Origin: Polyangiaceae bacterium
GTDB taxonomy: Bacteria; Myxococcota_A; Polyangia; Polyangiales; Polyangiaceae
Reading direction: 5' to 3'
Length of the DNA stretch: 42,972 nt
NCBI GenBank assembly: GCA_025937835.1
Contig: JAICQO010000058.1
Span: 1 to 42,972 of the forward strand
The notes under the pieces were generated by a model. That model made no database searches, had not been told where the DNA came from, and saw only the letters and a program-made list of their open reading frames with translations. Position numbers and translations under genes: made by a program. Positions 3,346-40,481 of this stretch are shown one piece after another (the stretch's first letter is position 1; each line of letters starts with the position of its first letter).

Positions 3346-3412
3346 CCCCCCAAAAAACCTGGCGACTCTTGGCGTCTCTTGGCGCCTTGGCGACAAAAGC
3401 CGTTCTGTGACG
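3346..3412 (-). repeat. type A 3'-end element after the FPF-repeat gene
   Basis: Read on the minus strand directly after the TAA at 3413: a CGGCTTTTGT lead, then CGCCAAG-type heptamers in register (spacing 8-10) and a CAGGTTTTTTGG tail. It is the same orientation relative to its gene as the copies at 28.1-29.2 kb and 32.1-32.3 kb. Unlike those, only a very weak hairpin precedes the T run. Confidence 0.8.
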
Positions 3413-5149
3413 TTACCGGCGAGGTTCGTCCCCGCCGCTCACCGTGATCGGGATCCAGAGCGTGCGGACCTGAGCCATCTTGCCGCGGCGCGTGTAGCCC
3501 GCGAGGCCGTACAAGACGTTCCACCAGTGGCCGTCTGGCGTCTCGCCGTACGAGAAGGCCGGGAAGATGTGCACTTCCCAGTCGAGGCCGCCGTAGACCT
3601 TGGCCTCGTGGTAATAGACGTTGCCGATCAGCTGTGAGACTTCGCGATCGTCGCTGAAGCGCCAGTAGGCGGGGAAGGCCACGGTCGAGCGCGATTTCGG
3701 GCCGGCGAAGTCCCAGAAGAACGGCGCGATCACCGTGTGTGTGCTCGCGGCGTCGCGGCCCAGGTACACGAACGGGTGGATGTTGGTGGACCAGCCGCGC
3801 AGATCGGTCGTGTGCTGGAAGAACGGTGTGATCCAGGTAGACTCGCTGATGCCGTAGCGCTCGAAGTGCCCGTAGAACGGGAACAGCGCGAGGCTGTTTT
3901 CACGCGGGCTCGTGCGCTGGTAGTAGAACGGGAACAAGAGCTTCTGGTCGAGGCCGATGTCGGGGTCTCGGTAGTGCCAGAAGAGCGGCGTGATCATGTC
4001 GAGCTGGGTGCGGCCGCGGTGCCGCGCGTAGCCCCAGGTGACGAACGTGCTCTCGCCCTTGTCGCCGTTCTCCAGCCAAAACAGGGGGTTGACGAAGAGC
4101 GAGGACTTCTCGTCGTAGCCGTAGTGGAAGAACGGGAACAGCGTCGTGTGCCGCTCGTTCTTGCCCCACAAGCTGTAATAGAAGGGGAAGACGTGGAGCG
4201 CGTCGCGCTTCTCGGTGTGGTTGCGGTAGTACGGGCCCCAGATGTTGGTCCACGACAGATCGCGATCGGTGTAGCGATAGTAGTGGAGCAGGGGCGGGAT
4301 GATCTCGTACTTGGTCTCGAGGTTCTGGCCGTAGAAGTAGAAGGGCGCGATGCCGAAATCGAGATCTTGGGCCGTGCGCGCGTCGCAGCTCGAGCCGCCC
4401 TTCCACGAGCAAAACAGCGGTCCCACCAGGTTGAAGCCGCCGTGCTTGTCGGTGCTCGTGTAAGTGAGCAGCGGCGGGATCAGCGTGTAACCGCCGTCCT
4501 TGCGCTTGCCGGTGAAGAAGAACGGCGCGAGCCAGTTGTCGTGCTCGCCCGGCGCCTCGCGGTGCACGAGCGGGCCGGCCACCGTGGTGCGCTCGCCGGT
4601 GATCTTGTTCTTCATGTCCCAGAACAGCGGGAACAAGACGTCGTCGGCGCGCTCGTTGCTGCGGCGGTTGTAATAGAGGCCGAAGACCGAGGCCCGGTCC
4701 GGGACCTTGGGGTCGAGACGCGAGGGCTGCGTGCGCTCTCCCCAGACCGGGAAAGCCAGGCGGAAGCGATAATTCCCGCTGCGCTCTTCGTAGTACGGGC
4801 CGTAGAAGCGGTGCTCGGTGCGCGCGTCGCGGCCGAGCTCTTCGGAGTCGGGATCGACGTCGCTGCCGATCTTGTCCTTCACCGACTTCTTGAGCTCGAG
4901 CGGCTGCTTCGGAAGCGTGGGCTCGCTGCCGGGCGCGACCATCTGATCGCTCGCGCCGGACGCGGCGTGGAGCTCGGGGGTGCCGGGCGGCGGTTTTTTG
5001 GCTGGCGCGCTGCCCTGAGGGGCGGGCCCGCCAGCGCCACCGCCGAACATGGTTCCGCCGCCAAACGGATCTTGCGCGAACGCGCGCGGCGCGACGGCGA
5101 GCGCCGCGAGGACACCGAGCAGCGCGAGCGCGCGCGATGCCGTTTTCAA
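3413..5149 (-). CDS. secreted FPF-repeat beta-rich protein
   Basis: 578 residues. An N-terminal signal peptide (MKTASRALALLGVLAALAVAPRAFA, cleavage near AFA-QD) and a Gly/Pro-rich linker are followed from about residue 120 by some 18 irregular repeats of 20-28 residues centred on [LIV]-[FI]-P-[FL]-[FYL] (LFPLFW, LAPFFF, LIPPLL, IAPFYF, VFPFYY, LFPFFH, ITPLFW, LFPFYY, LFPFYG, ITPFFQ, IHPFVY, IAPFFW). Aromatic strands alternating with charged turns suggest an outer-membrane or extracellular beta structure. I recognise the repeat style but no function. The TTG start overlaps the hisS TGA (TTGA), with GAGG about 9 bases upstream; the next in-frame Met lies after the signal peptide, so TTG is the likely start. 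Confidence 0.75.
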   Translation of the reverse strand: MKTASRALALLGVLAALAVAPRAFAQDPFGGGTMFGGGAGGPAPQGSAPAKKPPPGTPELHAASGASDQMVAPGSEPTLPKQPLELKKSVKDKIGSDVDPDSEELGRDARTEHRFYGPYYEERSGNYRFRLAFPVWGERTQPSRLDPKVPDRASVFGLYYNRRSNERADDVLFPLFWDMKNKITGERTTVAGPLVHREAPGEHDNWLAPFFFTGKRKDGGYTLIPPLLTYTSTDKHGGFNLVGPLFCSWKGGSSCDARTAQDLDFGIAPFYFYGQNLETKYEIIPPLLHYYRYTDRDLSWTNIWGPYYRNHTEKRDALHVFPFYYSLWGKNERHTTLFPFFHYGYDEKSSLFVNPLFWLENGDKGESTFVTWGYARHRGRTQLDMITPLFWHYRDPDIGLDQKLLFPFYYQRTSPRENSLALFPFYGHFERYGISESTWITPFFQHTTDLRGWSTNIHPFVYLGRDAASTHTVIAPFFWDFAGPKSRSTVAFPAYWRFSDDREVSQLIGNVYYHEAKVYGGLDWEVHIFPAFSYGETPDGHWWNVLYGLAGYTRRGKMAQVRTLWIPITVSGGDEPRR

Positions 5150-26643: not shown

Positions 26644-28110
26644 ATGCGTTCAGCATCTCGCCGCGACTTCGTGAAGGGCTTGTTGACCGGCGCCAGCGCG
26701 CTCGTGATCGGCTTCGACCCCGTCGAACGCAGCTGGGTCACCGAAGCCCACGCCAAGAGCGGCAAGCACGCCAAGCTCCAGGTCCCGAATTTCGACGGCC
26801 AGCTGATCACCGACTCGGCGGGAGTCGCCGAATACAGCGAAGACTTCGGCAAGTTCATCCACAAGACCCCGCGTGCGGTGCTGCTCCCGGCCTCCGTCAA
26901 TGACGTGGTGAAGGCCGTCAAATTCTGCCGCAAGCACTCGATCCCGATCGTGGGCCGTGGCGAGGGGCACAGCAGCGGCGGTCAGAGCCTGGTCGAGAAC
27001 GGCCTCGTCATCGACATGTCGGTGATGAACCAGATCGTCAGCATCAGCAGCACCAGTGCCACGGTGGAGGCGGGCGTCACCTTGAAAGAGCTGCTCGCCG
27101 CCAGCATCCCGCTCGGCGCGCGCCCGCCCGTGGTCACGGGTTACGTCGGCCTCACGGTCGGCGGCGTGCTCTCGATGGGTGGCGTCGGCCCGCAGAGTTA
27201 CCGCTTCGGCGCCATCGTCGACAACGTGCTCGAGCTCGAAGTCGTCACCGGTACCGGCGACCTGAAGAAGTGCTCGCTCACCAAGAATCCGCTGCTCTTT
27301 CAGGCCGTCGTCGGCGGCGTGGGCCAGTTCGGCATCATCGTCCGCGCCAAGCTCAAGATGACGAGCGCGAAGCCGCTCGCGCGAAACTACCTGATCGTCT
27401 ACTTCGACCTGCCCACGCTGTTCACGGACGCCAACATCTTGATGTCCGGCCGCGTCGACGCACTCTACCTGCGCATCCTGCCGGACGGCGCGGGAGGCTG
27501 GCTCTACGCCATCAACTGCGCGAAGTACTACACGCCGGACGCGCCGCCGGACGACAACGTCGTGCTCGCAGGGCTGCACTTCCCGCCGCCGGCGCTGACG
27601 GTCGTCGACATGCCCGCCTTCGCCTTCGACGCCTTCGCCGACGACGTCGTCTTCTCCGAGCTCGACGCAGCCGGTCTGTTCCGCCAGATCCCGCACGTCT
27701 GGGCCGACGTGTTCCTGCCGGCCTCGAAGATCCAATCCTTCGTCGAACAAACGCTGCCGTCGCTCACTCCGGAGGATCTCGGGCCCGACGGCGGCTTCAT
27801 CCTGCTCTATCCGGTCAAGAACCTGCCGTCCGCGCTGGCGTTCCGCTTGCCGCACGAGCAGCAGGTATATCTGTTCGACATCCTGACCTCGGTCGGCGCC
27901 TCCGCGGACATCCCAGGACGCCTCGCGAAGACCCGCGCCGTGTACGAAGCCGCGCGCGCCCAGGGCGGCACTCTCTACCCCATCGGCAGCACGCCCATGT
28001 CCCGCCAGGACTGGATCCGCCACTACGGCCCGCTCTACCCGGCCCTCGTCCTGGCCAAGCTGCTCTTCGACCCCGATCGCATTCTCACCCCGGGGGTAGA
28101 CATCTTCTAA
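26644..28110 (+). CDS. Tat-exported FAD-linked oxidoreductase, cytokinin-dehydrogenase-like
   Basis: 488 residues. The twin-arginine signal SRRDFVKGLLTGASAL (R6, R7) indicates export folded. A PCMH/FAD_binding_4 domain follows: PRAVLLPASVNDVVKAVKFC, then GRGEGHSSGGQSL with H109 where vanillyl-oxidase-family enzymes bind FAD covalently, and LTVGGVLSMGGVGPQSYRFG. The C-terminal part resembles the cytokinin dehydrogenase substrate domain, ending FDPDRILTPGVDIF. The real substrate is unknown. GGGGAGGAG at 26626-26634, 9 bases before the ATG, fixes the start against an upstream in-frame Met. The 3' end runs into the repeat block. Confidence 0.88.
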   Translation: MRSASRRDFVKGLLTGASALVIGFDPVERSWVTEAHAKSGKHAKLQVPNFDGQLITDSAGVAEYSEDFGKFIHKTPRAVLLPASVNDVVKAVKFCRKHSIPIVGRGEGHSSGGQSLVENGLVIDMSVMNQIVSISSTSATVEAGVTLKELLAASIPLGARPPVVTGYVGLTVGGVLSMGGVGPQSYRFGAIVDNVLELEVVTGTGDLKKCSLTKNPLLFQAVVGGVGQFGIIVRAKLKMTSAKPLARNYLIVYFDLPTLFTDANILMSGRVDALYLRILPDGAGGWLYAINCAKYYTPDAPPDDNVVLAGLHFPPPALTVVDMPAFAFDAFADDVVFSELDAAGLFRQIPHVWADVFLPASKIQSFVEQTLPSLTPEDLGPDGGFILLYPVKNLPSALAFRLPHEQQVYLFDILTSVGASADIPGRLAKTRAVYEAARAQGGTLYPIGSTPMSRQDWIRHYGPLYPALVLAKLLFDPDRILTPGVDIF

Positions 28111-28116
28111 CGGCTA

Positions 28117-28364
28117 CGGCCGAGAACGGCTTTTGTCGCCAAGGCGCCAAGAGCCGCCAAGAGTCGCCAGGGATTTGGGGGGTCGCACTGCGCGACTCTG
28201 GCGGCAATTGCACAGTCACTGGGCTCACTGGGAGTAGGGACGGCCGAGAACGGCTTTTGTCGCCAAGGCGCCAAGAGCCGCCAAGAGTCGCCAGGGATTT
28301 GGGGGGTCGCACTGCGCGACTCTGGCGGCAATTGCACAGTCATTGGGCTCACTGGAAGTAGGGA
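28117..28364 (+). repeat. 124-bp tandem duplication of a type A element
   Basis: 28117-28240 and 28241-28364 are direct copies differing at two bases. Each holds a hairpin GCCG-AGAA-CGGC plus TTTTG, heptamers CGCCAAG in register, GGGATTTGGGGGG, a GTCGCACTGCGCGAC hairpin and GCAATTGCACAGTC. They follow the FAD oxidoreductase stop by 6 bases. Confidence 0.92.
28119..28135 (+). terminator. short hairpin and T run after the FAD oxidoreductase
   Basis: GCCG (28119-28122), loop AGAA, CGGC (28127-28130), then TTTTG: a short intrinsic-terminator shape within 10 bases of the stop. It is repeated in the second 124-bp copy. Confidence 0.45.
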
Positions 28365-28383
28365 CGGTTGAGAGCGGGCTGGG

Positions 28384-28480
28384 GCCGCAAAGGCGCAAAG
28401 AGCGCAAAGAGTCGCAAGGGAATTTTGCGGGCCGCATTGCGCGACGGGCGGCGGCTATTGCTCAGTCGAAGGGCACGCAG
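28384..28480 (+). repeat. type B 3'-end element
   Basis: CGCAAAG heptamers in the same register as type A, ending GTCGCAAGGG, followed by the GCCGCATTGCGCGAC hairpin and GCTATTGCTCAGTCGAAGGGC. The module after the heptamers matches those after the type A elements next door and the type B element near 32.3 kb. Confidence 0.85.
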
Positions 28481-29167
28481 TGAGTTATTGCGGCCGAGGG
28501 CTGCGATGGTCTCGCCTGGCCTTGATTGAGCTCGCTCCGTGCGCAGCGTAACCAACCAAAAAAACCTTGGCGACTCTTGGCGCCCCTTGGCGCCTTGGCG
28601 ACAAAAGCTCGCAGAGCCGTTAAGCGGCGGCGACGGCGGGCGCGGGTGGGGGGATGGTTTGGCTGCAAGGGATTTTGTGGGTCGCATTGCGCGACGGGCG
28701 GCGGCTATTGCTCAGTCGAAGGGCACGCAGTGAGTTAATTGCGGCCGAGGGCTGCGATGGTCTCGCCTGGCCTTGATTGAGCTCGCTCCGTGCGCAGCGC
28801 AACCAACCCAAAAAAACTTGGCGACTCTTGGCGCCCCTTGGCGCCTTGGCGACAAAAGCTCGCTGAGCCGTTAGCGGCGGCGACGGCGGGCGCGGGTGGG
28901 GGGGGATGGTTTGGCTGCAGGGAATTTTGTGGGTCGCATTGCGCGACGGGCGGCGGCTATTGCTCAGTCGAAGGGCACGCAGTCAGTTAATTGCGGCCGA
29001 GGGCTGCGATGGTCTCGCCTGGCCTTGATTGAGCTCGCTCCGTGCGCAGCGCAACCAACCAAAAAACCTTGGCGACTCTTGGCGCCCCTTGGCGCCTTGG
29101 CGACAAAAGCTCGCAGAGCCGTTAGCGGCGGCGACGGCGGGCGCGGGTGGGGGTGATGGTTTGGCTG
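28415..29167 (-). repeat. three 250-252-bp tandem copies including a glycosyltransferase gene end
   Basis: Units 28415-28665, 28666-28917 and 28918-29167 are near-identical direct repeats. Each starts CAAGGG, runs through the CATTGCGCGAC and ATTGCTCAGTCGAAGGGC modules, a spacer, and a minus-oriented type A element, and ends in GGTTTGGCTG. The last 45 bp of the third unit (29122-29167) are the true 3' end of the glycosyltransferase gene; units 1 and 2 carry copies of it at 28620-28665 and 28870-28917, with indels in a G run. Confidence 0.92.
29104..29119 (-). terminator. short hairpin and T run after the glycosyltransferase
   Basis: On the minus strand GCTC-TGC-GAGC is followed by TTTTGT, 3 bases after the stop. 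The same stem is kept in the two upstream repeat copies, one with a changed loop. Confidence 0.45.
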
Positions 29168-30399
29168 GCCCAGAGGGCTCCGAGCAGGACCCAGATGGTG
29201 GCGATCGGGATCAGGTAGCGCGCGGTGGAGGAGACGAAGCTGTAGACGGCGAAGGAGAGGAGCGTGAACAGCGCGAGTGGCCAGGCGCCGGACGGGAAGG
29301 GGGTTCGCGTGCGGCGCGCTTTTTGGAAGAGGAGCGCCGCTGCGGGGAGAAGCCAGAGATGGGACTTCGTGTAGACGTTCCAGAACGGGGTGCCGCGCAC
29401 GGTGACGGGGACGTCGAAGAATAGGCGCGAGACGTTGGCGCACCAGTTGTAGGCGAATTTCAGAGGGTGCTCGCGGACGTTTTTGAGCCCCTGCGTCATG
29501 AAGTCGTCGCCGGATTCGGGCGACGAGATGTTGAACAGCTGATCGAGCAGCGGCAGCTTCGGGTTCGCCCCGAGCCCCGTCGTTCGGTCGTGGATCAGTT
29601 GGTGATGCGAGCGGAGCAGCTCGTTTTGGTAGACCCAACCCTGGTGGTACCAATCGCCGTATTCCTCGGGAAAGGGCGAGGTGAGCCAATAGAACATGTT
29701 GCCGCCCGCGCTCGACCAGTAAAACCAACGCCCCGTCAGCGAGTACGTGTACGCGAGGTAGGGAACACACAAGACGAGCGCGATGGCGGCTTGTAGGCCA
29801 TAGCTGCGTGCGAGCTCGTTCCGGCGCAGAAACCAGACCGCCCCCGCGACGAGCCCGAGCCCCACCGTGGCCGGCCCGAAGTTCACGCGCGTCAAACACA
29901 GGACCCCGAGCAGCACGCCCGCGACGCCGAGGTGACGGCGATCCTTCGTCGCATTCCAGGCGTGAAAGGTCCAAGCCGCGCACAGAAACGCGGTGAACAC
30001 CTCGGTGTAGAGCAGCGGCAGGTGCTCCCGCAATGCGGGGTACGCGATCAGAGCAGCCACCACGCCGAGCGCCCAGCGGATCGGCAAGGCCGGGTAGAGA
30101 AGCAGCCAGGCGTAGAGCACGACGCCAGCATGCAGAAAGGCGTTCAACAGTCGCGCGCCCTCCTGCCAGTCGTAGCTCACGAACGGCGCGAGCAGCAGCG
30201 GATATCCCGGGCCATTCAGCAGCACCACGTGCTCGCGCGGTGAATAGTGCCCCTCGAGCAGGTTCTGCGCATAGAGCAGGTAGCGCCATTCGTCGCCGAA
30301 CACCGAGCGCGGAAGCGCTCCGCCGATCTCCCAGAGCCCGAGCAGCGCCGTGATCACGAACAGCGCGAGCCCCCATTGCCAGCGCAGCGGCATGCGCAT
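29122..30399 (-). CDS. GT39/ArnT-like membrane glycosyltransferase
   Basis: 425 residues, with about ten membrane helices from LALFVITALLGLWEIGG to YLIPIATIWVLLGALWAS. FGDEWRYLLYAQNLLEGHYS after the first helix is the acidic DE motif typical of dolichyl-/polyprenyl-phosphate sugar transferases of the GT-C fold. Such enzymes move a sugar from a lipid carrier to protein, lipid or glycan on the periplasmic side. Start MRMPLRWQWG, 2 bases after the stop of the CehA-like gene, so one operon. The C-terminus TPTRARRRRR lies inside the amplified repeat. Confidence 0.8.
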   Translation of the reverse strand: MRMPLRWQWGLALFVITALLGLWEIGGALPRSVFGDEWRYLLYAQNLLEGHYSPREHVVLLNGPGYPLLLAPFVSYDWQEGARLLNAFLHAGVVLYAWLLLYPALPIRWALGVVAALIAYPALREHLPLLYTEVFTAFLCAAWTFHAWNATKDRRHLGVAGVLLGVLCLTRVNFGPATVGLGLVAGAVWFLRRNELARSYGLQAAIALVLCVPYLAYTYSLTGRWFYWSSAGGNMFYWLTSPFPEEYGDWYHQGWVYQNELLRSHHQLIHDRTTGLGANPKLPLLDQLFNISSPESGDDFMTQGLKNVREHPLKFAYNWCANVSRLFFDVPVTVRGTPFWNVYTKSHLWLLPAAALLFQKARRTRTPFPSGAWPLALFTLLSFAVYSFVSSTARYLIPIATIWVLLGALWASQTITPTRARRRRR

Positions 30400-30401
30400 G
30401 A

Positions 30402-32039
30402 TCAATCGACCGTCGCAGCTCGGAGGCGACGCTCCCAAAAGGTGCGTGCCGCGCGGTGGCGAGCGATGAGCTCGGCGAGCTCGGAGCTCGAATTGTCGGC
30501 CTTCTCGAGCTGAGCGACGCGCTCGTTGACCCAGGTCAAAAAGAATCTGGCTGCCTCGCGGCTGATCCGCGCTGGCGCGCCCTGCGCTTCGACGTAATAG
30601 GGGCCGGTCGAAGCGAAGCGAAACGTGTCGGTCTTGTCGGTGAGGGCACGGACCAGGAACCAGCCGCTCTGCTTGAAGGTCTGCGGCTCGAGCTCAGCGC
30701 GACCGGAAGCGGCATCGTAGCTCGCCGTGGCCACGACGCGGCCGTCTCGAACGAGCTCCACGCTTCGTATCGGCGTGCTGGACCTCACGCTCACGTCGAG
30801 CGCGACCTTGAGCGGCTTTGCCGCGGAGGCGGAGAATACATGTCCGGGGAGTTCGCCGTTGGCGCTGACGAGGAGCAGTGGTCCGTTCGTCACGAACGAG
30901 CGCCCGGCCTTCAGCCCATTCCACCAGTCGTCGTACTCGAGTGGCGCGGTGACGTGCACGTAGACGCGGTTGTATCCGACGGGATTCGGAAGCACGCCCG
31001 AAGCGCTGCCGGCCGAGGGGGCAAGGCGGATGCCCGACTCGAGGACGCGATAGTAGATGTCCTGCGTGCAGTAGCCGTTGGTCAGCGGGTCGCGCCCCGG
31101 CCCGCCCGGACAGCCGCGGCCCCAGGCCTCGTGATCGCGCGGGCCGACGCGGTTCATGTGGTTGTGCGCGATCCCGATCGAATCGGCGAGCTCCGAGGCC
31201 AGCCAGGTCGGCACGTCCCACCAGAATGGCTTTTCGATGTCGATGTGCGAGGCGGGACTCTTGCGCGCTGTTTCCGCGAAAGCGGCCGGAGGCGGCCACT
31301 CGTCGTTCGCGTCACCCGCCCGATGGATGATCCGATTCTTCTCGTCTCGCGCGTTCGGCGGCAGCGGCAGCGGTTTGTCGAGTCGAAAATAAAGGAGCGC
31401 ACCGCCGAATCGCTCGTCCTCGCCGGCGGTCGGATCCGCAAACCGACCGTTGTCGAACGTCACCACGTCGTGGGGAGCCTTCGAGGCGCCGTCGTTTCCC
31501 CAGGTGATCACGGGAGCAACCCGCAAATCTTCGGCCTGCGCCAGCAACTGGATGTCGTCGAAGCTGCGGTGAATGTGCAGATCGCCGGAGAACCAGCCCG
31601 CTCCGGCCATGTCGATCAGGCGTTTTAGCTGGACGCGGACGGTCTCGCGCTCGCGAGAGAGCGTCACCGTTCCGGACACCGGAGCAAACTCCGGACCCCG
31701 CTCGATCTCGTAGGTGTAACGCCCCGCGGGAACGTCGAGCGAACCACTTCCGGGGAACACGAAGTGATCGTGAAATCCGGGGAACCCAGCCGGAAATTGA
31801 GGCTCGCCAGCGCTGTTCCGCAAGTGGATCCGGCACGCGACCGGCGCCCCGTCCTCGCCCACGACCTCGAACCGGAGCGCAGGCGCTTCCGACGCCGTCG
31901 CGTTCGCGGACGCCGGCGCCGACGCGTTCGTGGCATTGCTCGGCTTCTCCCGGCAACCGCCCGACACGGCAACGAGCAACGCCGTGACGAGGCCAAACGC
32001 ATCGGCCTTCGCGACCAGTCTAGTTGCAGCGAGCCGCAT
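30402..32039 (-). CDS. CehA/McbA-like PHP-type metallohydrolase lipoprotein
   Basis: 545 residues. ATG 32039 gives a lipoprotein signal (GLVTALLVAVSGGC, lipobox SGGC). A beta domain (about 50-140, FEVVGEDGAPVACRIHLRNSAG...) precedes a PHP-like metal domain opening GWFSGDLHIHRS (H155, H157) and including VITWGNDG and SIGIAHNHMNR; the rest holds a C-terminal beta domain. The CehA/McbA family covers carbaryl hydrolase and related phosphoesterase-like enzymes; the substrate here is unknown. The open frame continues upstream through the repeats as an artefact. Followed closely by the glycosyltransferase. Confidence 0.8.
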   Translation of the reverse strand: MRLAATRLVAKADAFGLVTALLVAVSGGCREKPSNATNASAPASANATASEAPALRFEVVGEDGAPVACRIHLRNSAGEPQFPAGFPGFHDHFVFPGSGSLDVPAGRYTYEIERGPEFAPVSGTVTLSRERETVRVQLKRLIDMAGAGWFSGDLHIHRSFDDIQLLAQAEDLRVAPVITWGNDGASKAPHDVVTFDNGRFADPTAGEDERFGGALLYFRLDKPLPLPPNARDEKNRIIHRAGDANDEWPPPAAFAETARKSPASHIDIEKPFWWDVPTWLASELADSIGIAHNHMNRVGPRDHEAWGRGCPGGPGRDPLTNGYCTQDIYYRVLESGIRLAPSAGSASGVLPNPVGYNRVYVHVTAPLEYDDWWNGLKAGRSFVTNGPLLLVSANGELPGHVFSASAAKPLKVALDVSVRSSTPIRSVELVRDGRVVATASYDAASGRAELEPQTFKQSGWFLVRALTDKTDTFRFASTGPYYVEAQGAPARISREAARFFLTWVNERVAQLEKADNSSSELAELIARHRAARTFWERRLRAATVD

Positions 32040-32148
32040 CACAGGCGCGCACGATACAGGATTTGGCGCACGGGATTCGACGTTCGACGGAGTTCCCGGC
32101 AGATGGACTCGCTTGGCCTTCGCTACGAGCTCTCCGTGCGCAGAGTAA

Positions 32149-32306
32149 CCCCAAAAAATCCATGGGGACTCTTGGCGGTCCTCGGCGCCTTGGCGACAAA
32201 AGCTCGCTTCCAGCGAGCCCTCGACTGAGCAATCGCTGCGAAGAGTCGCACCACGCGGCCCCCCAAATCCCTTGCGACTCTTTGCGCTCTTTGCGCCTTT
32301 GCGGCG
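32149..32306 (-). repeat. type B then type A 3'-end elements after the response regulator
   Basis: Read from the NtrC-type gene (minus strand): type B core with CGCAAAG heptamers (about 32269-32305), GGGATTTGGGGGG, a GCCGCGTGGTGCGAC module and GCGATTGCTCAGTCGAGGGC, then type A core with CGCCAAG-like heptamers (about 32165-32203) and GGATTTTTTGGGG. Both are in the gene's orientation. This type A copy is the most diverged, with CGCCGAG and TCCCCATGG. Confidence 0.88.
32198..32218 (-). terminator. hairpin and T run at the head of the second element
   Basis: On the minus strand GCTCGCT-GGA-AGCGAGC (7-bp perfect stem) is followed by TTTTGT, the same layout as the element heads after the FAD oxidoreductase and glycosyltransferase genes, with a different stem sequence. 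Confidence 0.55.
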
Positions 32307-32329
32307 AAAAACTCCCCACGACTTCGTGG
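32307..32329 (-). terminator. intrinsic terminator of the NtrC-type gene
   Basis: Directly after the TGA, on the minus strand CCACGA-AG-TCGTGG is followed by GGAG and TTTTT. Type B heptamers start right after the T run. Confidence 0.65.
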
Positions 32330-33787
32330 TCAGCCGCCGCGTTTGATGCCGTAAGCGCGGATCTTCTTGTGGAGGTTGGTGCGCTCGACGCCGAGGATCA
32401 CGGCGGCGCGGGAGATGTTCCAGTCGAGCTCTTTGAGGGTCTCGATGATGTACGAGCGCTCGGTGGCTTCGCGGTATTCGCGGAGGGTGAGGCGGCCCGG
32501 AGCGGTGCCGGAGGGGAGAGTGTGCCCGGGGAGGAGCGGCGACGGGCCGTGGGCGGGGTCGGCGTCTTCTTCGAAGGGGCTGGTGTGCGGATCTTCGGGC
32601 AGGTCGGCGATGGTGATGGCGTCGTCGGAGAGGATCGCGGCGCGTTCGACGACGTTTTTGAGCTCGCGCACGTTGCCGGGCCATTTGCGTTGGATGAGCG
32701 CCTCGTACACGCCGCGGTCGATGGCCTTGGGTTTGAGGCCGTTGTCCTGACAGAACGCGGCGGTGAAGGCGTCGGCGAGCACGGGGATGTCCATCGGGCG
32801 TTCGCGGAGGGCGGGGACGCGGATCGGAAAGACGTCGAGCCGGAACAGCAGATCCTCGCGGAAGGTGCCGGCGGCCACGGCGCGGGCCAGATCCTTGTTG
32901 GTGGCGGCGAGCACGCGCACGTCGACGTGGATCACGTGCTCGGAGCCGACGCGCACGATTTCTCCGTTTTGGAGGGCGCGCAACACCTTGGCTTGCGCAG
33001 TGAGATCCATGTCGCCGATCTCGTCCAAGAACAGCGTGCCGCCGTGGGCTTGCTCGAAGAAGCCGCGCTTTCTGCCGTGCGCGCCGGTGAAGGAGCCGCG
33101 CTCGTGGCCGAACAGCTCGCTCTCGATCAGCTCGCGCGGGATGGCCGCGCAGTTGACCTTGACGAACGGCGCGTCTTTGCGCGGGCTCAGGCGGTGGATG
33201 GCGCGGCTGACGAGCTCCTTGCCCGTGCCGCTCTCGCCCGTGATGAGCACGCTGGCCTTGGTCGGCGCGACCTTGTCGATGTCTTGAAAGAGCCGCTGGA
33301 TCGGCGGGCTCGTGCCGATCATCTCGTAACGCGCCTGGAGCTCGGCGCGGAGCTGCTCGACCGTGCGCGATAGCCGCGCGGTGCGCACGGAGTTGTGGAC
33401 GCTGACCACGATGCGCTCGCGGTTCAGCGGCTTCTCGAAAAAGTCGGAGGCGCCGAGCTTGATGGCAGAGACGGCGTCGTGGACCGTGGCGTGGCCGCTG
33501 ACGACAATCACCGGCAGCTCGCGGGTGGCCTCGTCGGTCTTGATCCGCTCCAGCGCTTCCAGCCCGCTCATGCCCGGCAGCTTCAGGTCGAAGATCGCGA
33601 TGTCGACGGGCTGCTCGGGGTTCGAGATGATGTCGAGCGCCTGTTCCGCGCGCTCGGCCTCGAGCACGCGATAGCCCTCGCCGCTCAGCACCATCTCGAG
33701 CGTGCGGCGGATGTTCTTCTCGTCATCCACCACCAGCACGGTCGGCGACGTGAGCGTCAGCGGCCCCGGATCGGTTGCTTCCACCAT
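32330..33787 (-). CDS. NtrC/NtrX-family sigma-54-dependent response regulator
   Basis: 485 residues. Receiver domain 16-130 with DD at 21-22, phospho-acceptor D67 in IAIFDLKLPG, and conserved KP in FFEKPLNR. Sigma-54 AAA+ domain (about 150-390): GESGTGKE Walker A, ELFGHERGSFTGA (GSFTGA where GAFTGA is usual), GGTLFLDEIGDM Walker B, WPGNVRELKNVVERA. C-terminal Fis-type HTH: WNISRAAVILGVERTNLHKKIRAYGI. The HTH with ERTNLHKKI is the NtrX/myxobacterial style. It activates sigma-54 promoters. No histidine kinase is adjacent. Start MVEATDPGPLTLTSPTVLVVDDE, an ATG. Confidence 0.93.
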   Translation of the reverse strand: MVEATDPGPLTLTSPTVLVVDDEKNIRRTLEMVLSGEGYRVLEAERAEQALDIISNPEQPVDIAIFDLKLPGMSGLEALERIKTDEATRELPVIVVSGHATVHDAVSAIKLGASDFFEKPLNRERIVVSVHNSVRTARLSRTVEQLRAELQARYEMIGTSPPIQRLFQDIDKVAPTKASVLITGESGTGKELVSRAIHRLSPRKDAPFVKVNCAAIPRELIESELFGHERGSFTGAHGRKRGFFEQAHGGTLFLDEIGDMDLTAQAKVLRALQNGEIVRVGSEHVIHVDVRVLAATNKDLARAVAAGTFREDLLFRLDVFPIRVPALRERPMDIPVLADAFTAAFCQDNGLKPKAIDRGVYEALIQRKWPGNVRELKNVVERAAILSDDAITIADLPEDPHTSPFEEDADPAHGPSPLLPGHTLPSGTAPGRLTLREYREATERSYIIETLKELDWNISRAAVILGVERTNLHKKIRAYGIKRGG

Positions 33788-39198: not shown

Positions 39199-39240
39199 TG
39201 AATCGCCCCGGGTTTCCCGAAGGCTCCGAGAATTGGGAGA

Positions 39241-40481
<1,241 letters not shown>

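Follow-up and report, generated by a model that had tools for sequence, protein, structure and literature searches.

What are the short heptamer arrays that lie behind several unrelated genes in a 42,972-nucleotide contig (JAICQO010000058.1, GenBank assembly GCA_025937835.1) of a Polyangiaceae bacterium, and what put them there? A first-pass annotation of this stretch, the whole of which is called the window here, ascribed them either to a role in the 3' untranslated region (UTR) or to a mobile element that targets gene ends. Here, we propose that the window repeats are probably the ends, and gene-less derivatives resembling miniature inverted-repeat transposable elements (MITEs), of a minimal mobile element that carries a gene of the GxxExxY family and settles behind stop codons. 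As judged from sequence comparison, the identity of the arrays as ends of GxxExxY elements is well supported, and we infer a role of the GxxExxY enzyme in movement. GxxExxY proteins are named by their sequence motif alone; the proposal, if right, would let a widespread protein family whose function is unknown and a widespread class of intergenic repeats account for one another, it would open to testing a very small element whose sole gene is of a nuclease family, and the trpE-trpG junction described below would show how an element can enter a tight operon without breaking it. In the literature searched, most subscription journals being outside it, neither a link between GxxExxY or PDDEXK_3 genes and heptamer arrays or inverted repeats nor PDDEXK_3 by name was found; GxxExxY, PF13366 or TIGR04256 is mentioned once each in three papers, a search for CTTGGCGTCTTGGCG returned nothing, and six array sequences matched only unrelated work on fish environmental DNA.

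Scanning the window with at most one mismatch per heptamer yielded nine arrays, all between protein-coding genes (Table 1); a tenth heptamer match, at 26751, lies inside a gene and was left out of the counts. The pattern CGCMAAGNCGCMAAG, with up to one mismatch, has nine matches in the window compared to 0.13 expected, a number reached in none of 100 shuffles, and the repeats described by the first-pass annotation are thus real. The heptamers start 8, 10 and 10 nt apart in the array at 28137 (CGCCAAG) and 8, 9 and 10 nt apart in the array at 28386 (CGCAAAG), as had been stated, and the T- or G-rich tail, the TCGCA-N-TGCGCGAC hairpin and the ATTGCWCAGTC module (28207-28217) are present as well. 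The claimed start within about 10 bases of the stop codon is a fair description: the mutual similarity of CGCCAAG-type copies begins 11-21 nt outside the heptamers, and the first heptamer lies 19-26 nt behind the stop in the copy adjoining each of the four genes. The inward-facing pair at 28364-28640 folds into one long hairpin (z -3.83 against shuffles). At Rfam gathering scores, the window repeats had no match, and no rRNA was found in the window.

The picture of four separate gene ends held only in part. The copies assigned to the flavin adenine dinucleotide (FAD) gene and to a "glycosyltransferase" belong to a single composite of about 1 kb (28116-29167) between two convergent genes, in which a 124-bp unit repeated 2.8 times is followed by a 251-bp unit repeated 3.0 times and which holds arrays of both directions. 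Because in a convergent gap every array reads with one gene whatever its strand, such a gap is uninformative on orientation, so that within the window only 3358 and the 32171/32270 pair are informative. Among the gene names, Pfam backs the FAD protein and the NtrC-type regulator, with no Pfam match for 3413-5149 (-) or for the supposed glycosyltransferase at 29122-30438 (-).

The same limit applies to the rest of the genome. A related pattern occurs at 49 sites of the window genome (6.92 Mb in 227 contigs), 24 forward and 25 reverse, and the reversed pattern at none; array copies also lie within about 300 bases of contig ends (C25, C45, C83, C160, C182, C201, C202), and the true copy number is therefore probably above 49. 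Neighbouring genes, here and in the multi-phylum loci below, were called with a home-made gene caller in place of annotation. Of 45 arrays with a called upstream gene, 39 read along with that gene, 24 of these in convergent gaps, 8 without a call on the other side and 7 in co-directional gaps; in co-directional gaps 2 arrays read against the genes (7 vs 2, p 0.18), and one array lies in a divergent gap. The fixed orientation in the window genome thus follows largely from convergent gaps, which make it automatic, and gene-end orientation in this genome was rejected as proof of targeting.

What ties the arrays to a gene is a locus elsewhere in the same genome. The window genome has three GxxExxY genes, one of which (L032, contig C5) lies between inverted arrays of the same kind as the window copies. 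Aligned with the left end of L032, the seven window copies of CGCCAAG type have 52-66 identical positions out of 56-74 (88-93%), the 11-21 nt outside the heptamers included, and the two of CGCAAAG type have 37 of 44. The second gene, L031, has inverted CAGGGAG arrays on both flanks, and the third, L033, has an upstream array, read by eye, and a contig end downstream; all three genes thus have such an array, and both testable ones have it on two sides. No CGCMAAG-type array was seen by eye at the four window-genome genes of PF05635 (23S_rRNA_IVP), a four-helix-bundle family, where a script found only another repeat, in L037, a result of little weight as the script also missed L032; an initial idea that such arrays occur on four-helix-bundle genes as well as on GxxExxY genes was dropped.

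Paired ends around GxxExxY genes extend far beyond this genome. In a same-phylum sample the family is present in 46 of 377 genomes, and in a set of 32 loci (30 from that sample plus L032 and L033, one dropped for a contig edge) the upstream/downstream inverted-repeat score exceeds every cross-genome pairing in 19 of the 31 testable loci, with a motif that varies between loci. A multi-phylum set comprised the best 80 of 574 GxxExxY loci from a scan of GTDB genomes, spanning Planctomycetota, Chloroflexota, Acidobacteriota, proteobacteria, Bacteroidota, a cyanobacterium, archaea (L132, L151) and others, of which 74 were testable and six were dropped for contig edges. With 300-bp flanks, end-pairing scores reach at least 35 at 51 of the 74 loci as against 1 of 126 controls shifted by 1500 bp at the same loci; only 24 of the 74 outscore every cross-locus pairing, because many loci have similar heptamers. 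Inward-facing CRCNRAG-type arrays are found on both sides of the gene at 54 of the 80 loci, on one side at 23 and on neither at 3; the loci, 421,006 bases in total, contain 55 further such arrays away from these positions. In the 54 two-sided loci, heptamer spacing is 8 or 9 in 199 of 244 cases, with a tendency for TT(C/A)AC to stand before the first heptamer; the column counts of the heptamers are partly imposed by the CRCNRAG search motif, and the pairing scores (51 of 74) were obtained without it.

Within one element, the two ends are more alike than are ends taken from different elements (0 of 10,000 shuffles as high, also within GC-content blocks). Variable heptamer positions agree between the two ends in 408 of 486 cases (60% between elements) and spacer lengths in 94 of 108 (47% between elements), and spacer letters agree in 73 of 141 (52%, vs 40% between elements, a level reached in 59 of 2000 shuffles). 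Agreement of this kind is better explained by something that reads the heptamers at a given spacing than by selection on pairing alone. By eye, most GxxExxY copies in two genomes with several of them (G413 and G042; L216-L230) have their own end motif, matched between both ends; a host-specific heptamer was rejected, given that copies within one of these genomes carry differing motifs.

Matching plasmid records number seven, and the preceding gene is on the GxxExxY strand in the five annotated there (fabD in Sphingomonas, radA in Bacteroides, ade in Bernardetia, and genes farther away in Treponema and Prevotella), two records being without annotation at that place. Arrays were inspected in four of the plasmid records, those of Treponema and Prevotella not among them; in Gemmatirosa, two short and fully palindromic copies lie some way from the gene in place of simple ends. 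A search of phages gave no match, and viral contigs contained 23 pattern stretches with no confirmed relative of the element.

Flanks of the four-helix-bundle genes were compared in the same manner. In a phylum sample of 30 PF05635 loci (L251-L280, six dropped for contig edges), the inverted-repeat flanks beat all cross pairings in 18 of 24 testable loci, and many of the flanks, not all, look by eye like short-motif arrays, for example GTTAGGTGGTTGTGTGG, TGTAGACTG and GTCAGAGG. PF05635 genes can therefore not serve as a clean negative control.

The gene between the arrays belongs to a recognizable family. L032, L031 and L060 score 136.6-140.1 bits against TIGR04256 (cut-off 35) and 130.8-136.1 bits against PF13366 (PDDEXK_3; cut-off 22), and L281, L285, L287, L214 and L215, which figure below, also score as GxxExxY over the cut-off, L285 (80 aa, 47.4 bits) covering only half the profile. 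Across two alignments, of 29 and 45 proteins, the GxxExxY, D, ExK and QxxxY residues do not vary or are conserved to at least 90%, and together they form what we take to be a RecB/Cas4-type motif. A search of the PDB by sequence gave no match. An AlphaFold2 model of the protein (predicted local distance difference test score 92.3) has weak matches as its closest PDB folds, none of which passes E 0.001, namely the restriction-endonuclease-like 3ijm (E 2.1e-3) and SSO0001 (4ic1), a Cas4 protein, followed by alkaline and lambda exonucleases; the best matches in a viral structure library are G8DDC4 and the PD-(D/E)XK nuclease R4TGU4, and the NCBIfam Cas4 profile reaches L032 at E 0.092 only. We conclude that the GxxExxY gene encodes a predicted member of the PD-(D/E)XK nuclease superfamily.

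Orientation, ambiguous in the window genome, is pronounced for the gene-bearing copies. At the 80 loci a left neighbour was called in 74 cases, and in 70 of them it shares the strand of the element; where both neighbours were called (n = 69), the element runs with both genes in 62 cases and against both in 2, the other pairs being convergent (4) or divergent (1), so that co-directional gaps divide 62 with to 2 against (p 2e-16), and 89 of 118 other neighbouring gene pairs at these loci are co-directional. The first heptamer follows the stop codon at a median of 11 nt (1-48 nt in 55 of 61), and from the last one to the following start codon the median distance is 23.5 nt (n = 62). A distribution unrelated to gene orientation, which the first-pass annotation had named as telling against its proposal, is therefore not seen for the family, the window genome alone remaining at 7 to 2; the fixed orientation that it claimed from the window is borne out by gene-bearing elements elsewhere, and its suggestion of a mobile element targeting gene ends gains support well beyond the window from the paired ends, the sense bias and the empty sites described next.

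In Undibacterium (the genus of L152), a trpE flank match was obtained in 38 of 39 genomes, trpE and trpG being named by the NCBIfam profiles TIGR00564 and TIGR00566 over cut-off. Among the best 20 trpE-trpG junctions, 12 are empty, with the trpE stop touching the trpG start, 5 contain a GxxExxY element and 3 contain other insertions that, from their sequence, we read as remnants (scars) of elements. The flank tree requires 6 changes of state compared to a shuffled mean of 7.4. L214 and L215 have near-identical flanks (tips 0.016 and 0.017), yet their genes are only 68% identical, and the elements L196 and L200 are identical at 428 of 460 positions (93%) with 84% identity in the trpE stretch. 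At the right end, directly before the trpG start, lies a GAGAGG motif that looks like a ribosome-binding site. The ratio of nonsynonymous to synonymous substitution rates (dN/dS) is 0.06-0.21 in 4 of 10 gene pairs, the other six being not computable. In Gelidibacter (the genus of L155), seven elements behind one gene are of one type and two (L285, L287) of another. Read together, these sequences suggest repeated arrival at one stop codon in both genera. In a Gelidibacter relative, L282, the GxxExxY gene at the shared site is frameshifted compared to its sisters and reads for only 91 residues, a decaying copy.

The short copies are patchy among relatives of the window genome. At least 20 pattern sites are present in 8 of 60 family genomes, and the same-genus genome G337, in which the best match to the FAD protein is only 36% identical over a partial length, has none. 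In the genome G408, the ends of a GxxExxY element (L303) equal those of the scattered copies, and of 15 loci read there, 10 have CGAAC directly before the first heptamer and all 15 have AAC at that place. Gene-bearing elements that share their ends with short copies of the same genome were thus found in the window genome and in G408, and not at the loci read in G384, G387 and G399. Short, gene-less, several to a genome and with inverted ends, the window pair 28364-28640 and the copies of G408 and G387 have the properties of MITEs.

The mechanism that we propose starts from a complete element of about 0.45 kb, bounded on either side by three or four heptamers in an array that faces inward and containing a single gene, for a GxxExxY protein of about 125 residues. 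The nuclease, alone or with host factors, would recognise the heptamers, cut at the ends and move the element, and it would move short gene-less copies in trans. Sense copies behind stop codons would persist since the gene is co-transcribed with the host operon and does no harm there.

A number of observations weigh against a GxxExxY-driven element. Mobility is read from sequences; no target-site duplication is evident by eye at the Undibacterium site or at the copies of the window genome, and the exact ends of GxxExxY elements are not fixed. All nine Gelidibacter genomes searched are occupied behind the same gene, with no empty site. The 80 loci were not drawn at random from the 574 but are the highest-scoring among them and resemble one another, CRCNRAG was read off their own pairings, and 12 of the 31 same-phylum and 23 of the 74 multi-phylum loci miss the thresholds. 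Co-evolution of protein and heptamer, considered as a candidate, was not significant (Mantel r 0.11, 163 of 2000 shuffles as high; 0.08 after accounting for GC content, 275 of 2000). Among the relatives, G397 (129 sites), G407 (47) and G393 (37) have no PF13366 match, and CGCMAAG heptamers occur within 400 bp of only one of five GxxExxY loci in high-copy genomes (L303), none being found within that distance of L294, L296, L299 and L300 (from G399, G408, G387 and G384, respectively), with the genes of G384 and G387 looking fragmentary. Finally, the array pair in G387 (L236, L238, L239, L241, L243, L250) lies in the middle of a 142-bp repeat that has its own ends, GGGTGCCTA and TAGGCACCC, and is flanked by perfect 9-bp duplications in 4 of 6 copies, so that these copies were probably moved by another enzyme; by eye, G387 also has a second copy set with outer hairpins like those of repetitive extragenic palindromic (REP) sequences.

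Observations of this kind would be expected if another transposase, of DDE type or similar to the REP-associated tyrosine transposases (RAYTs), moved the arrays, with the GxxExxY gene as a frequent passenger that benefits from the ends or was captured by them. Both copy sets of G387, the three site-rich genomes lacking the gene, the single matching locus among five, the lack of a significant link between protein type and heptamer type, and the matched ends of other sequence at PF05635 genes all fit such a transposase, whereas the recurrence of GxxExxY as the gene between arrays in loci of many phyla, its presence in 5 of the 8 genomes with at least 20 sites vs 10 of the 52 others (Fisher p 0.019, with the threshold chosen after the counts) and the low dN/dS of four pairs speak for more than a passenger; we regard this alternative as possible and somewhat improbable. 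The complementary ends and the sense position inside operons could also belong to an element acting on messenger RNA, with arrays that pair in the transcript, a stem that RNase III cuts to free the message of the gene, and DNA mobility as a secondary matter. In the 23S rRNA intervening sequence that contains the S23 protein gene, the ends are complementary and RNase III cuts them (PMC4990558), and the PF05635 genes likewise show matched inverted ends. If pairing alone were selected, however, the spacers should be complementary too, and their letters agree in only 73 of 141 cases, in contrast to heptamer positions and spacer lengths, a pattern that fits a protein reading spaced heptamers; a pure RNA stem is thus disfavoured, and we consider this explanation unlikely.

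Similar weight can be given to the functional 3'-UTR element that the first-pass annotation had entertained, a bidirectional terminator or mRNA-stability hairpin kept by the host at gene ends. It accords with the position behind stop codons, with the strong fold of the inverted pair and with a terminator-like site (32316-32329, -) that separates the NtrC gene from its array, but that site is one of six in 28000-32400, where shuffles give 4.0 (standard deviation 2.2), and intrinsic terminators (a G+C hairpin with a T run at the arrays) are accordingly not above chance. Moreover, the pattern is absent from the same-genus G337, elements vary between sister species at one site, and inside operons, where the last heptamer lies so close to the next gene, a terminator would be harmful; we judge a 3'-UTR role to be quite unlikely. 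Chance or low-complexity similarity might be suspected of motifs as short as heptamers, but the excess of matches in the window and the 49 genome sites against none for the reversed pattern reduce it to a negligible probability.

Among known systems, the GxxExxY element as we propose it works most like the REP doublets forming hairpins (REPINs) and their RAYTs, which are described (PMC3116915) as short inverted doublets scattered between genes, with non-autonomous copies tied to a small enzyme gene, two features that the GxxExxY element shares. It differs in that its ends in the window are direct heptamer arrays and not REP hairpins, its gene belongs to a PD-(D/E)XK nuclease family and not to the tyrosine transposases, and its gene-bearing copies strongly prefer the stop codon and the sense orientation. 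The 23S rRNA intervening sequence, termed selfish in PMC4990558, is comparable in its length of about 0.4 kb, its one small gene and its complementary ends, which GxxExxY loci likewise have around theirs; it resides in rRNA helices, encodes another protein family and is excised from RNA by RNase III, whereas the copies described here lie between protein genes and not in 23S rRNA helices. The TAACTGA heptamer repeats of Beggiatoaceae (PMC4679880) are short intergenic direct-heptamer arrays that are patchy across phyla, with no transfer mechanism reported as evident and a heptamer different from ours. Bacterial MITEs are similar in being short, gene-less and present in many copies with inverted ends. 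MITEs usually derive from insertion sequences, whereas the short copies described here share their ends with a gene-bearing element of the GxxExxY kind.

A bolder generalization, which we put forward as speculative and rather doubtful, would see in these loci a new class of minimal transposable element, in which a RecB/Cas4-like nuclease of about 125 residues recognises the end arrays, inserts the element behind stop codons in sense within operons, rides host transcription and provides the next gene with a ribosome-binding site. CRCNRAG arrays in many phyla, archaea included (L132, L151), would be the footprints of this class, and PF05635 genes would represent a second family built on the same plan. 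On this view, the seemingly independent arrival of different elements at one stop codon in sister species (L214 and L215 in Undibacterium; L281 vs L285 and L287 in Gelidibacter) would indicate that more than selection is at work and that stop codons are actively targeted.

Table 1. Heptamer-array features of the window and their identity with the left end of the GxxExxY element L032
Feature	Positions	Strand	Comparison and remarks
Single element end following the gene that stops at 3413; 4 heptamers (3358-3392)	3348..3404	-	52/56 aligned positions identical to L032 left end
124-bp unit, copy 1: array 28137-28171, hairpin TCGCA-N-TGCGCGAC 28183-28196, ATTGCACAGTC 28207-28217	28116..28239	+	57/65 identical to L032 left end
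124-bp unit, copy 2: array 28261-28295	28240..28363	+	98% identical to copy 1; 58/66 to L032 left end
Short non-autonomous element with inward arrays 28386-28419 (+, CGCAAAG) and 28566-28600 (-, CGCCAAG)	28364..28640	.	left 37/44, right 65/74 identical to L032 left end
251-bp tandem unit, 3 copies	28417..29167	.	copies 2 and 3 retain right-hand arrays 28817-28851 and 29068-29102 (-; 59/65 and 66/74 identical to L032 left end) and a truncated left array
CGCCAAG-type array, 3 heptamers at 32171-32195	32151..32207	-	52/56 identical to L032 left end
CGCAAAG-type array 32270-32303, behind the NtrC-type regulator ending at 32330	32260..32316	-	37/44 identical to L032 left end

Two further features of the window lie apart from the arrays. 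Positions 154-248 and 1191-1285 form a 95-nt direct repeat of 86% identity, perhaps reflecting two related neighbouring genes. The ALIL pseudoknot is a frameshift signal of IS3-type transposases, and its Rfam model (RF01497) matches 39528-39644 (+) at 111.7 bits, with open reading frames at 39233-39730 and 39567-40481 around it.

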